Assembly (NCBI RefSeq): GCF_000183745.1 | Contig: NC_014761.1 | Span: 434,001-498,000 of the forward strand | Reading direction: 5' to 3' | Length of the DNA stretch: 64,000 bases | DNA from: Oceanithermus profundus DSM 14977 | Lineage (GTDB): Bacteria; Deinococcota; Deinococci; Deinococcales; Marinithermaceae | Shown: in pieces, positions 9,234 to 42,756 of the stretch | How positions within the stretch are numbered: position 1 is the first letter of the stretch | How the letters are laid out: the number at the start of each line of letters is the position of its first letter | Notes under the pieces: model-generated | The model's database searches: none | What the model saw: the letters and a program-made list of their open reading frames with translations, nothing else | Told to the model about the DNA's origin: nothing | Position numbers and translations under genes: made by a program

Positions 9234-9238
9234 GGAGG

Positions 9239-9317
9239 CGTCACCGGGGGTGCCCCACCGGGCTGAGAGACACCCTTGGAACCTGAACCGGGTAATGCCG
9301 GCGTAGGGAAGGTGACG
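9239..9317 (+). promoter_or_regulatory. TPP riboswitch (thi box)
   Basis: The aptamer shows both conserved cores: CTGAGAG at 9263-9269 and the ACCTGAACCGGGTAATGCCG block at about 9281-9300 followed by GCGTAGGGA. The closing P1 stem pairs CGTCACC (9239-9245) with GGTGACG (9311-9317). It senses thiamine pyrophosphate and controls thiB and the genes behind it. Confidence 0.97.
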
Positions 9318-9364
9318 GGCCAAGGCCCCATCCTTCCCCTCCCGCGTGACAAGGAGGGGTTTTT
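9306..9364 (+). terminator. Riboswitch expression platform: terminator that also masks the ribosome binding site
   Basis: CCCCTCC (9336-9342) pairs with GGAGGGG (9353-9359), followed by five T and then the thiB ATG. The right arm contains the AAGGAGG ribosome binding site. GGGAAGG (9306-9312), which overlaps the 3' side of P1, can instead pair with CCTTCCC (9332-9338) and break that stem. Ligand binding stabilises P1 and so favours the terminator. Confidence 0.8.
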
Positions 9365-39540: not shown

Positions 39541-39568
39541 AAAAACAAAGGCGCCCGCAGGCGCCTTT
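39541..39568 (-). terminator. Terminator of the cold-shock gene
   Basis: A 9-bp stem (39547-39555 with 39560-39568, loop CGCA) is followed on the minus strand by TTTGTTTTT, counting the last stem bases. Confidence 0.85.
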
Positions 39569-39587
39569 GGTCGGTTGCGGGTTCAGG

Positions 39588-39803
39588 CTAGTAGCCCGCG
39601 GACTCCACCACGGTCACGTTCGCGGCCGAGGGGCCCTTGGGGCCATCTTCCACTTCGAACTCCACGACGTCGCCTTCGTTGAGGGTGCGGAAACCCGAGG
39701 AGTTGATGGCGCTGAAGTGCACGAACACGTCGCTGCCACCTTCGCGCTCAATGAAACCATAGCCTTTTTCCGCGTTGAACCACTTCACTTTACCTTTTTC
39801 CAT
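39588..39803 (-). CDS. Cold-shock domain protein
   Basis: The 71-residue protein has both RNA-binding motifs of the CspA family: '[18 protein letters not shown]' (RNP1 region KGYGFIE) and '[15 protein letters not shown]' (RNP2 VFVHF). It binds single-stranded RNA and DNA and acts as an RNA chaperone. AAAGGAGC precedes ATG 39803. A leader of about 90 bases starts after a TACAAT box and holds a GCCC-GAAA-GGGC hairpin just before the ribosome binding site. Confidence 0.96.
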
Positions 39804-39899
39804 TACTGCTCCTTTACTCCTGCCCTTTCGGGCAACGCACGGGGGCTGGGCGATGAGACTTACCAATTTGGCCACCACAGCTTTCCCGCAGCGCGCTTC

Positions 39900-39986: not shown

Positions 39987-42617
39987 TCAGCCCTTGGCCA
40001 CGAGGTTGACGAGCTTTCCGGGAACGTAGATCTCCTTGACGAGCTGCTTGCCCTCGAGGTGGCGGCGGACGTTTTCGTGCGCCTTGGCGCGGGCGATCGC
40101 CTCGTCCTTGTCGATCTCAGCGGGCACCTCGATCCGCGCCCGCACCTTGCCGTTCACCTGCACCACCAGGGTGAGGGTGTCGGCGGCCAGGGCGGCCTCG
40201 TCGTAGGTCGGCCAGCGGGCGTCGAAGACCGAGTTCTCGTTGAAGCGGTGCCACAGCTCCTCGGCGATGTGGGGGGCGAAGGGGGCCAGGAGCTGCAGGT
40301 AGCCCAGCACCGCGTTCTTGTAGACCGCGTTCGCCTCGCTCGTCTTGCGGAAGTCGTAGAGCGCGTTGAGCATCTCCATGAGCGCGGCGATGGCGGTGTT
40401 GAAGCGCAGGCCCTCGACGTCCTCGGTGACCTTCTTGATCGTCTGGTTGAGCTTGCGGTAGAGGGTCTTGTCCGCGCCCTCGAGCCGGGCGGGGTCGAAG
40501 GCCTCGGGGGCCTGGCGCAGGGCTTCTTCGTCCTCCACCACCCGCCGCCAGACGCGGTTCAAGAACCGCCAGGCGCCCTGCACGCCCTCCTCGGTCCAGA
40601 CCATCTCCTTCTCCGGCGGGGCGGCGAAGAGGATGGTCACGCGGGCGATGTCGGCGCCCTGCTCGCGCACGAAGGGACCGACCATCACGCCGTTGCCCAG
40701 TGACTTGCTCATCACCGCCGGCTTCCAGAAGTGGAGGTGGCCGTCCTCGCCCTCGCGCAGCTCGGCGCCCATCTTCTTCACGTCGTCCCGGCTCAGCTCG
40801 GAGGTCTCCAGCTCCAGGCGGATGCGCGCCTCCTCGCTCAGGCGCACGCGCTCGCCCTCGACCTGGACGGGGCCGTAGTCGGTCCAGCCCATGACCATGC
40901 CCTGGGTGAAGAGGCGTTCGAAGGGCTCGTCCACCGCGACCATCTTCTGGTCGTGGAAGAACTTGGTGAAGAAGCGCGAATAGAGGAGGTGCAGCACCGC
41001 GTGCTCGATGCCGCCGATGTACTGGTCGACGGGCATCCAGTAGTCGGCCTTGTCGCGCGCGAAGGGCCGGCGCTCGTTGTGGGCGTCGGTGTAGCGCAGG
41101 TAGTACCACGACGAGTCGAAGAAGGTGTCCATGGTGTCGGCGTCGCGCCGCGCCGGGCCGCCGCACTTGGGGCAGGTGGTGCGGATGAACTCGGGGTGGG
41201 CCTCGAGCGGGCTCTTGCCCTGGGGCCGGATCTGCTCGACGTCCTTGATCTCGGGCAGCTCGACCGGCAGCTGGTCCTCGGGGACCGGAACCACGCCGCA
41301 GTTCTCGCAGTGAATCATCGGGATGGGCGTGCCCCAGTAACGCTGGCGGCTGATCAGCCAGTCGCGCAGCCGGTAGGTGACCGTGGCCTCGCCCAGCCCC
41401 TTCGCGGCGAGCCACTCGGTGATCTTCTTCTTGCCCTCCTCGCTGGGCAGGCCCGTGAACTCGCCCGAGTTGATCATGACGCCGGGGCCCTCGTAGGCGG
41501 CCTCGAGCGGCTCGGGCAGGTCCTCGCCCTCGGGCTTGACGACCGGGACGATCTCGAGCCCGAACTTGCGGGCGAACTCGAAGTCGCGCTGGTCGTGGGC
41601 CGGCACCGCCATGATGGCCCCGGTGCCGTAGCCGTAGAGCACGTAGTCGGCGGTCCAGATGGGCACCTTCCGGCCGTTCACCGGATTTATGGCGTAGGCG
41701 CCGGTGAAGACGCCGGTCTTCTCCCGGTCTTCGGTCTGGCGTTCGATCTCGCTCTTGAGCTGCGAGGCGCGGACGTATTCTTCCACCTCGGCGCGGCGCT
41801 CGGGGGTGGCGAGCTCGAGCGTCAGCGGGTGTTCAGGGGCGATGACCATGAAGGTGGCCCCGAAGAGGGTGTCGGGCCGGGTGGTGAAGACCTCGAGCGC
41901 CTCGTCCCGGCCCTCGAGCGCGAACTTCACCGTGGCCCCCTCGCTGCGCCCGATCCAGGCGCGCTGCATCGCCTTCACCTTCTCGGGCCAGTGCTCCAGC
42001 TTGTCCAGGTCGTCGAGCAGCCGGTCGGCGTAGGCGGTGATCTTCAGGTACCACTGCTCCAGGTTCTTCTTCTCGACCAGGGTGTCCTCGTGGCGCCAGC
42101 AGCGCCCCTCGACGACCTGCTCGTTGGCCAGCACCGTCTGGCACTTGGGGCACCAGTTCACCAACCCGCCGGCGCGGTAGACCAGCCCCGCCTCGTACAT
42201 CTTGATGAAGATCCACTGGTTCCAGCGGTAGTAGTCGGGGGTGCAGGTGGTCACCTCGCGGTCCCAGTCGTAGAGGATCCCCATCAGGTTCAGCGATTCC
42301 TTGGCCTTGGCGATGTTGTCGAAGGTCCAGTCGGCCGGGTGCTTGCCGAACTTGAGGGCGGCGTTCTCGGCCGGCAGGCCGAAGGCGTCCCACCCCATGG
42401 GGTGGAGCACGCTGTACCCCTGCTGCTTCTTGAAGCGGGCCAGGGCGTCGCCCATGGTGTAGTTCTTGAGGTGGCCCATGTGCAGGTCGCCCGAAGGGTA
42501 GGGGAACATCTCCAGGACGTAGTACTTCGCCCCTTCCTCGCGGGCCTTCATCAGGCCGCGCTCTTCCCAGAAACGCTGCCATTTGGGTTCGATCGCGTGG
42601 GGGTTGTATTTGCTCAT
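39987..42617 (-). CDS. leuS: Leucyl-tRNA synthetase
   Basis: The 876-residue class I synthetase charges tRNA-Leu. It has the HIGH motif as HMGH in '[20 protein letters not shown]', the KMSKS loop as VMSKS in '[16 protein letters not shown]', a CP1 editing domain (about residues 230-415, with '[20 protein letters not shown]') and a tRNA-binding C-terminus ending '[15 protein letters not shown]'. Cysteines at 'WCPKCQTVL' and '[12 protein letters not shown]' suggest zinc sites. It is preceded by an attenuator-like leader with its own leader peptide. GGAGGAACG precedes the ATG. Confidence 0.97.
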
Positions 42618-42636
42618 CGTTCCTCCGGTGAAGCCT

Positions 42637-42726
42637 AAAAAACCCTCCCGCAGCAGGGGAGGGAGCGGACCCGTAGGGCTCCCTCAGGCGGGGGGTAGGC
42701 CGGTGCGCGTCATCGCTAAGAGTATA
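42637..42726 (-). promoter_or_regulatory. leuS: leuS leader: promoter, leader peptide and attenuator
   Basis: On the minus strand TATACT (42726-42721) is followed after seven bases by a nine-codon ORF. Its stop overlaps the start of GAGGGAGC (+ strand 42678-42685), which pairs with GCTCCCTC (42659-42666) as an antiterminator. The latter overlaps CCCTCCC (42657-42663), which pairs with GGGAGGG (42643-42649) followed by six T (42642-42637) as a terminator. The two stems exclude each other. Confidence 0.75.
42684..42713 (-). CDS. leuS leader peptide MTRTGLPPA
   Basis: The ORF ATG-ACG-CGC-ACC-GGC-CTA-CCC-CCC-GCC-TGA has one leucine codon, CTA, which is rare in this GC-rich window. It is leaderless by position (seven bases after TATACT). 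Two prolines follow the leucine, which may add to pausing. The stop codon abuts the antiterminator stem, so a ribosome that finishes would cover that stem. This supports a role in sensing leucine supply for leuS, but translation is not proven. Confidence 0.6.
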   Translation of the reverse strand: MTRTGLPPA

Positions 42727-42756
42727 CGCTCGCGTGCATGGAAAAAACAAAGATGA

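Follow-up and report, generated by a model that had tools for sequence, protein, structure and literature searches.

A probable ribosome-mediated attenuator with a nine-codon leader ORF and a single CTA codon upstream of leuS in Oceanithermus profundus, and its conservation across the order

The leuS gene of Oceanithermus profundus lies on the minus strand of the window, i.e., the whole 64-kb stretch of DNA that was analysed, at positions 39987..42617, and encodes a leucyl-tRNA synthetase of 876 aa, which is recognised by the NCBIfam model TIGR00396 (leuS_bact) with 1104.8 bits against a cut-off of 548.4. Its ATG is located at 42617 and is preceded by a ribosome site, GGAGG, at 42622..42626. 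Further upstream on the same strand, a -10-like hexamer, TATACT (42721..42726), is followed by an ORF of nine codons (42684..42713; ATG ACG CGC ACC GGC CTA CCC CCC GCC TGA) encoding MTRTGLPPA, in which CTA at codon 6 (42696..42698) is the sole Leu codon and the proposed sensor. A possible -35 hexamer, TTGTTT (42745..42750, minus strand), which matches TTGACA at 4/6 positions, lies 18 nt upstream of the -10-like hexamer, and a strict sigma-70 promoter scan of the region found no consensus promoter before leuS. The 5' arm of a candidate antiterminator, GAGGGAGC (region 2; 42678..42685), begins 1 nt inside the stop codon, at a distance of 13 nt from the C of CTA, and its 3' arm, GCTCCCTC (region 3; 42659..42666), overlaps the 5' arm of an intrinsic terminator hairpin, CCCTCCC-CTGCTGC-GGGAGGG (42643..42663), which runs into six T (42637..42642), all on the minus strand. 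Together, the -10 box, the T run and everything between them span ~85 nt; the hairpin ends 25 nt before the leuS start and leaves GGAGG free. As the neighbouring gene, on the plus strand from 42775/42787 onward, is divergent to leuS, no transcript other than that of leuS can be subject to the terminator. The original prediction had named TATACT, the MTRTGLPPA ORF with its single CTA, the stem overlapping its stop codon, and the terminator with six T, and all of these lie on the minus strand where it had placed them.

This leader is, very probably, a ribosome-mediated transcription attenuator that senses the supply of Leu-tRNA. Such a reading, judged from the sequence, had been put forward in the original prediction, and the conservation of the leader, the rarity of CTA and the folding of the RNA all support it. 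What the sequence shows are the elements, their mutually exclusive pairing, their conservation, the choice of codon and the spacing; the start of transcription, the translation of the ORF, the stalling of the ribosome, termination and the response to leucine we infer. Based on the position of the -10-like hexamer, the transcript would have its 5' end at the AUG of the nine-codon ORF or approximately one base upstream of it, and a ribosome would load there while RNA polymerase moves on. When Leu-tRNA for CUA is scarce, the ribosome would wait with CUA in its A site and its leading edge approximately where GAGGGAGC begins; with the ribosome stalled, the GAGGGAGC/GCTCCCTC antiterminator would take the 5' half of the terminator, and leuS would be transcribed. 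When charged tRNA is plentiful, the ribosome would proceed to the stop codon and cover GAGGGAGC, upon which the CCCTCCC/GGGAGGG terminator would form and transcription would stop before leuS.

A terminator scan of the region upstream of leuS is unremarkable by itself, with one site found against 1.0 expected in shuffles, and the folding z-score of the whole O. profundus leader is only -1.54; the antiterminator that overlaps the terminator, for its part, beats shuffles of region 2 (p = 0.010). That terminator-like sites are not rare by shuffling, and that the folding of the leader alone is unexceptional, would fit a constitutive terminator with a chance ORF, in which the hairpin would do no more than reduce leuS expression and the other features would be coincidental. 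Such a coincidence is nevertheless hard to credit in view of the conservation of CTA leaders, their codon statistics and a plan that is common to leuC and ilvB, which are described below, and the explanation is judged highly improbable.

The conservation was assessed in 111 genomes of the order, in which a search for leuS gave 101 matches in 99/111 genomes; a class-level search covered the same 111 genomes, among which no group is recognisable as Deinococcus proper. G107, at a contig start, and L180, with 154 bases, were dropped for having no upstream sequence, leaving an analysed set of 99 leuS upstream regions from 97 genomes, in which the mislocated leuS starts of L084, L091, L147, L155, L193 and L195 were corrected by hand. 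Leader ORFs were defined as starting with ATG or GTG 4-11 nt after TAnnnT and spanning 5-40 codons, and their codon content was ignored in order to avoid circularity. By this rule, 79/99 regions contain a leader ORF beside a -10-like box, and 78 of these 79 ORFs hold an in-frame CTA. In dinucleotide shuffles of the same regions (n=9,900), any ORF was found in 11.7% and a CTA ORF in 2.7%, so the conservation of the CTA leader (78/99 regions) is far beyond chance. CTA leaders occur in all five families sampled from the order, and the leuS leader is thus not confined to Thermaceae: they precede leuS in 6/6 regions of the O. profundus genus, 1/1 of g2, 1/5 of g3, 2/2 of f2, 3/3 of f3, 47/49 of f4 and 18/33 of f5. 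As a guess, g13 is Thermus-like, g12 is Meiothermus-like and f5 is Trueperaceae-like. A terminator-like hairpin, by a loose score, follows 77/78 of the CTA leaders at leuS. With the same ORF filter, CTA leaders were absent before ileS, valS and leuA (0/16 each) and before the other CDS-like ORFs of the window (0/35), the 36th and sole match being leuS itself. The original prediction called for a conserved short ORF with Leu codons and for covarying stems upstream of leuS in relatives. The former is found in 78/99 regions and in all five families; competing stems are clear in the O. profundus family and in the Thermus-like genus, and are weaker or not shown elsewhere. The comparison with relatives does not, therefore, refute the original prediction.

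The filter found no CTA leader in 21/99 regions, including 4/5 of g3, a genus of the O. profundus family; two of these misses, L164 and L191, hold CTA ORFs outside the filter (too long, or without a box). On manual reading, ten f5 genomes (L174-L178, L182, L183, L185, L193 and L195) have a TAnnnT box immediately upstream of the start codon of leuS, and leuS would therefore itself be leaderless there. Two g3 loci, L087 and L089, have a very short leader before leuS, and no leader ORF was detected by the filter at L146 and L147 of f4. From this distribution, the absent leaders would represent losses rather than primitive absence. The best 80 matches of a scan of genome contigs for leuS include one Thermaceae locus. 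Of the 79 loci other than L001, 72 leuS loci belonging to other groups were put through a rough, weak screen: 8 have a terminator-like hairpin and 9 a T-box-like core, and the 5 loci that combine a terminator with the lack of such a core yielded no ORF in which Leu makes up at least 25%.

The codon at which the ribosome is predicted to wait is rare. CTA accounts for 21/15,330 codons, or 1.2% of Leu codons, in the 33 CDS-like ORFs of the 64-kb window, and leuS itself has zero CTA among its 74 Leu codons; the expectation that CTA would be scarce is thereby borne out, on the scale of the window rather than of the genome. In the 63 distinct leaders, CTA is the commonest codon (87/686 codons), while all other Leu codons together number 34, and CTA triplets are distributed over frames 0/1/2 as 87/4/4, i.e., 87/95 are in frame. 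CTA is codon 6 in 8/8 CTA leaders of the O. profundus family (f1). The leader peptide varies between genera, as in MTRTGLPPA, MTRRDLSRV, MIWAGLART, VKGSALPRR, MSPARLIP and MQWFIHLELP; this divergence of the peptide while CTA stays suggests that the codon, and not the peptide, is what matters.

The position of the leader ORFs relative to the -10-like boxes is equally regular. The gap between the -10 box and the leader start is 6 nt in 61/78 CTA leaders and ranges from 5 to 9 nt in all 78; this sharp mode is informative, since the ORF rule admitted gaps of 4-11 nt. Transcription should therefore begin at or next to the AUG. Only 5/78 CTA leaders are preceded by a Shine-Dalgarno-like motif, and a -35 element with at least 4/6 matches at 15-19 nt is present in 27/78. 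Hence, the leuS leader ORF is probably leaderless.

A leader model based on sequence only (R1) was built from 32 leuS leaders and applied with strict filters, under which few candidates were scored per genome and weak copies may be missed. Its 36 strong matches (E <= 1.6e-7) all lie at leuS, in as many genomes, and prove nothing alone, being the 32 source sequences and near copies of them. The next match (E 5.5e-5) lies in G010, a genome whose leuS has no CTA leader, before leuC, which encodes the large subunit of 3-isopropylmalate dehydratase. A CTA leader with a terminator-like hairpin was found before leuC or a relative of it in 17/18 genomes (16/17 without G010), against 3.1% of shuffles; examples among the leuC loci (L311-L328) are MTYARALTLIPPPRG in O. 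profundus (L323) and MRRGILLDLGRAGPA in a g13 genome. The identity of leuC was checked by NCBIfam for three genomes (G010, O. profundus and one g13 genome), and for the relative in G014 (L328), the family model of homoaconitate hydratase gives a better fit than that of leuC. Before ilvB, a CTA leader with a terminator-like hairpin is present in 14/16 genomes, against 3.4% of shuffles, as exemplified by MHAFASIILRPALGLVLGRGGGGLLT in O. profundus (L230; the ilvB loci are L219-L233 and L236). In O. profundus, leuA, a gene with CTA leaders in 0/16 genomes, follows ilvB in the same orientation at a distance of ~1.5 kb. Taken together, the CTA leaders at leuS, leuC and ilvB imply a leucine regulon. 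The ilvB leaders are rich in Leu, Val and Ile, with rare CTA codons and, in O. profundus, also GTA.

Upstream of pheS, short ORFs with at least 2 Phe codons were found in 8/16 genomes (loci L274-L291; L284 in O. profundus), and none was found by the filter in the four g13 genomes. These ORFs are leaderless-looking and contain FF or FFF, e.g., MRAYGFFFSY. A leader at trpS was considered and rejected: any ORF was found in 2/16 genomes, and that of L304, with two Trp codons, seems on manual reading to lie inside a tRNA gene.

These leaders bear on whether leucine is the specific signal at leuS or whether the leader is a general sensor of translation, responding to growth rate, drugs or coupling. 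For a general sensor speaks the single Leu codon, always CTA, in 8/8 f1 and 30/47 f4 leaders, which is fewer than in textbook leaders; moreover, the same arm would be freed by stalling anywhere near codon 6, in O. profundus for instance at the two prolines CCC CCC. CTA, however, is kept while the peptide diverges, and CTA leaders are none at ileS, valS and leuA but present at leuC and ilvB, while pheS instead has Phe-rich short ORFs in 8/16 genomes, all of which makes a general sensor unlikely. We propose, with a fair degree of confidence, that the Thermus/Deinococcus phylum possesses a leucine regulon (leuS, leuC and ilvB) of minimal leaderless attenuators, in which a short ORF, of 7-25 codons at leuS, would supply its AUG as the very start of the mRNA, a 70S ribosome would load directly at that bare end, and the charge of one Leu-tRNA would be read through rare CUA codons, one or a few per leader; the switch at leuS would have been lost in some lineages by the promoter moving next to the structural gene. 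The genomes sampled for this proposal represent one order of the phylum.

The competition between antiterminator and terminator was evaluated by shuffling, by folding and by covariation. In the 51 distinct f1 and f4 leaders, the antiterminator arm begins 9-16 nt (median 14) beyond the C of the first CTA, and a ribosome with this codon in its A site should cover the RNA up to about that point. Compared with shuffled versions of region 2, the antiterminator reaches p<=0.05 in 37/72 distinct leaders and in 35/51 of those from f1 and f4. The proportion varies among the groups, from 7/7 in f1, 22/24 in g13, 1/1 in g14 and 1/2 in g11 to 0/2 in g10, 4/15 in g12, 1/2 in f2, 0/3 in f3 and 1/16 in f5.

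The switch was then modelled by folding, at 37 and 60 C, the part of the RNA not covered by a ribosome, which was placed at CTA or at the stop codon or omitted altogether. For the 5 distinct leaders of Oceanithermus, a ribosome at CTA yields the antiterminator in 4/5 and one at the stop codon yields the terminator in 5/5, in agreement with the two states that the original prediction had assigned to these positions; without a ribosome, the antiterminator forms in 5/5 at both temperatures. In g13 at 60 C, 17/24 leaders give the antiterminator when the ribosome stands at CTA, and 21/24 give the terminator when it stands at the stop codon, as do 21/24 without a ribosome; the corresponding values at 37 C are 10/24, 22/24 and 21/24. 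The difference between g13 and Oceanithermus in the absence of a ribosome fits an extra helix of g13, in which the codons before CTA (GGCCAGG) pair with CCTGGCC and 90.5% of the cells on alignment A1 are paired. Thus, the g13 leaders conform to the classical attenuator scheme of 1:2, 2:3 and 3:4 pairing, whereas Oceanithermus seems to have no strong 1:2 helix. On A1, the covariation score of region 1:2 was reached by 0/500 shuffles, and that of the antiterminator was not above shuffles (316/500 as high), the shuffles ignoring relatedness in both cases. On alignment A2, 0/500 shuffles (antiterminator) and 5/500 were as high for the two helices, again with relatedness ignored, which makes all of these tests weak; overall, the covariation is modest. 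A third alignment, A3, comprises 17/21 leaders of f5, f3 and f2.

With the ribosome at CTA at 60 C, the g12 leaders fold to the terminator in 14/15 cases and to neither structure in 1/15, and the f5 leaders at this temperature yield the terminator in 15/16 with the ribosome at CTA, at the stop codon and without a ribosome. For L090 and L092 of the O. profundus family, equilibrium folding did not give the antiterminator at the CTA position. As the leaders of g12, f5, L090 and L092 fold to the terminator at CTA, a switch there would need co-transcriptional folding or pairings that were not found. Mutually exclusive antiterminator and terminator folds are accordingly found for O. profundus, for 4/5 Oceanithermus leaders and for about two thirds of g13 at 60 C, and the same tests did not show them for f5, f3, L090, L092 and most of g12. 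It could be argued from such leaders that the short ORF controls the translation of leuS, by reinitiation or by masking the ribosome site, and not termination: the antiterminator is significant (p<=0.05) in just 2/21 distinct f2, f3 and f5 leaders, and, by a stricter score, 5/18 f5 CTA leaders have no terminator. Translational control is nonetheless very improbable at the O. profundus locus, where a hairpin followed by six T stands clear of a free GGAGG, 25 nt before the leuS start.

No Rfam family, including RF00230 and RF00512, matched the leuS leader at gathering in the window or in L081, L090, L111, L156 and L189; at E<=0.1, the leuS leaders of L081 and L111 gave no match, the one match obtained lying elsewhere. 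These results bear on the possibility that the leader switches by binding tRNA (T-box), a protein or another ligand and that its short ORF is incidental. T-boxes do exist in the group: the ileS leader L263 matches RF00230 and is thus confirmed by Rfam, and ileS and valS leaders are T-box-like in several genomes. In O. profundus, the ileS (L266) and valS (L239) leaders carry what we take to be a T-box-like core, GGTGGTACCGCGG, with long variable stems. The Rfam T-box model misses both of these leaders, even at E<=0.1; as it matches L263, the model evidently misses divergent T-boxes, and L239 and L266 are perhaps such divergent members. The leuS leader, by contrast, combines the lack of an Rfam match with a span of only ~85 nt from the -10 box to the T run and a strong coding signature, and there is scant likelihood that it is a T-box or a related switch. 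A ribosome-mediated attenuator accordingly remains the favoured reading of the leuS leader.

Ribosome-mediated attenuation in response to leucine is known from the enterobacterial leu operon, the leader of which constitutes the Rfam family RF00512; that of Salmonella has rare CUA codons. As proposed here, the ribosome senses rare CUA Leu codons and alternative hairpins compete. The enterobacterial leader controls a biosynthetic operon, is longer and has clustered Leu codons, whereas the target here is leuS and the leader gives no match to RF00512.

The closest counterparts are the leuS attenuators that Seliverstov et al. (2005, PMC1262725) predicted in Streptomyces avermitilis and S. coelicolor, and which likewise consist of a leader ORF with Leu codons, an antiterminator and a terminator before leuS. 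They belong to another phylum and are also predictions only, and, compared without sequence alignment, they differ from the present leader, which has 9 codons with one CTA and lies right after the -10 box. In mycobacteria, cysteine-rich upstream ORFs have been proposed as attenuating leader peptides, a role that the authors call speculative (PMC4633059); they resemble the leaders described here as short ORFs in bacteria with many leaderless transcripts, and differ in the amino acid (cysteine) and in the genes concerned. A conserved uORF also regulates the branched-chain amino acid operon ilvBNC of Corynebacterium (PMC10272879), in a different phylum and at a different gene. A survey of attenuators from 2010 stated that leader-peptide systems had, to its authors' knowledge, not been shown outside Proteobacteria and Actinobacteria, save for ermC and their own Firmicutes hisS (PMC2965389).

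The mechanism is therefore known, and what may be new is a minimal, probably leaderless, order-wide ORF that often uses a single rare codon as its sensor. In the literature searched (attenuation, leader peptides and leaderless mRNA), no leuS attenuator was found for Deinococcota; the work of Lopatovskaya et al. from 2010, which reportedly treats the attenuation of amino acid and aminoacyl-tRNA operons, could contain it, and early papers on Thermus leu genes could contain a leuC leader. If the proposal is true, a leucine attenuator in five families of a deep-branching order would show that the mechanism is older, or has been invented more often, than thought. Thermus, which serves as a model in work on transcription and on the structure of the ribosome, should belong to this order. 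The leader would then also be a very small and heat-stable system for studying leaderless initiation, the reading of a single codon and termination jointly, from purified components.

Several further features were observed at these loci and in the window. A tRNA-Leu gene (anticodon taa) lies shortly upstream of leuS or its leader in the g12 genomes of L147, L151 and L154. One f5 genome (G083) has two leuS matches, L159 and L196, which share an identical leader ORF, MVVFVHFRLRLGSGLA, and the second of which covers residues 2-497 only. Some f5 leader peptides (L161, L172, L173, L189 and L194) are alike at the C-terminus (LGGPRR, LGGPRP, LGGPRL, AEGPGH and AGGPGR), a likeness that perhaps stems from region 2 lying inside the ORF. 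In the O. profundus window, a TPP riboswitch (RF00059, 69.4 bits) is located at 9236-9327 on the plus strand, and a sub-threshold Rfam match to cspA (29.8 vs 78 bits) at ~39541-39897 on the minus strand, corresponding to 1052-1408 of L081 and lying over a cold-shock-like ORF just downstream of leuS, probably reflects coding similarity.
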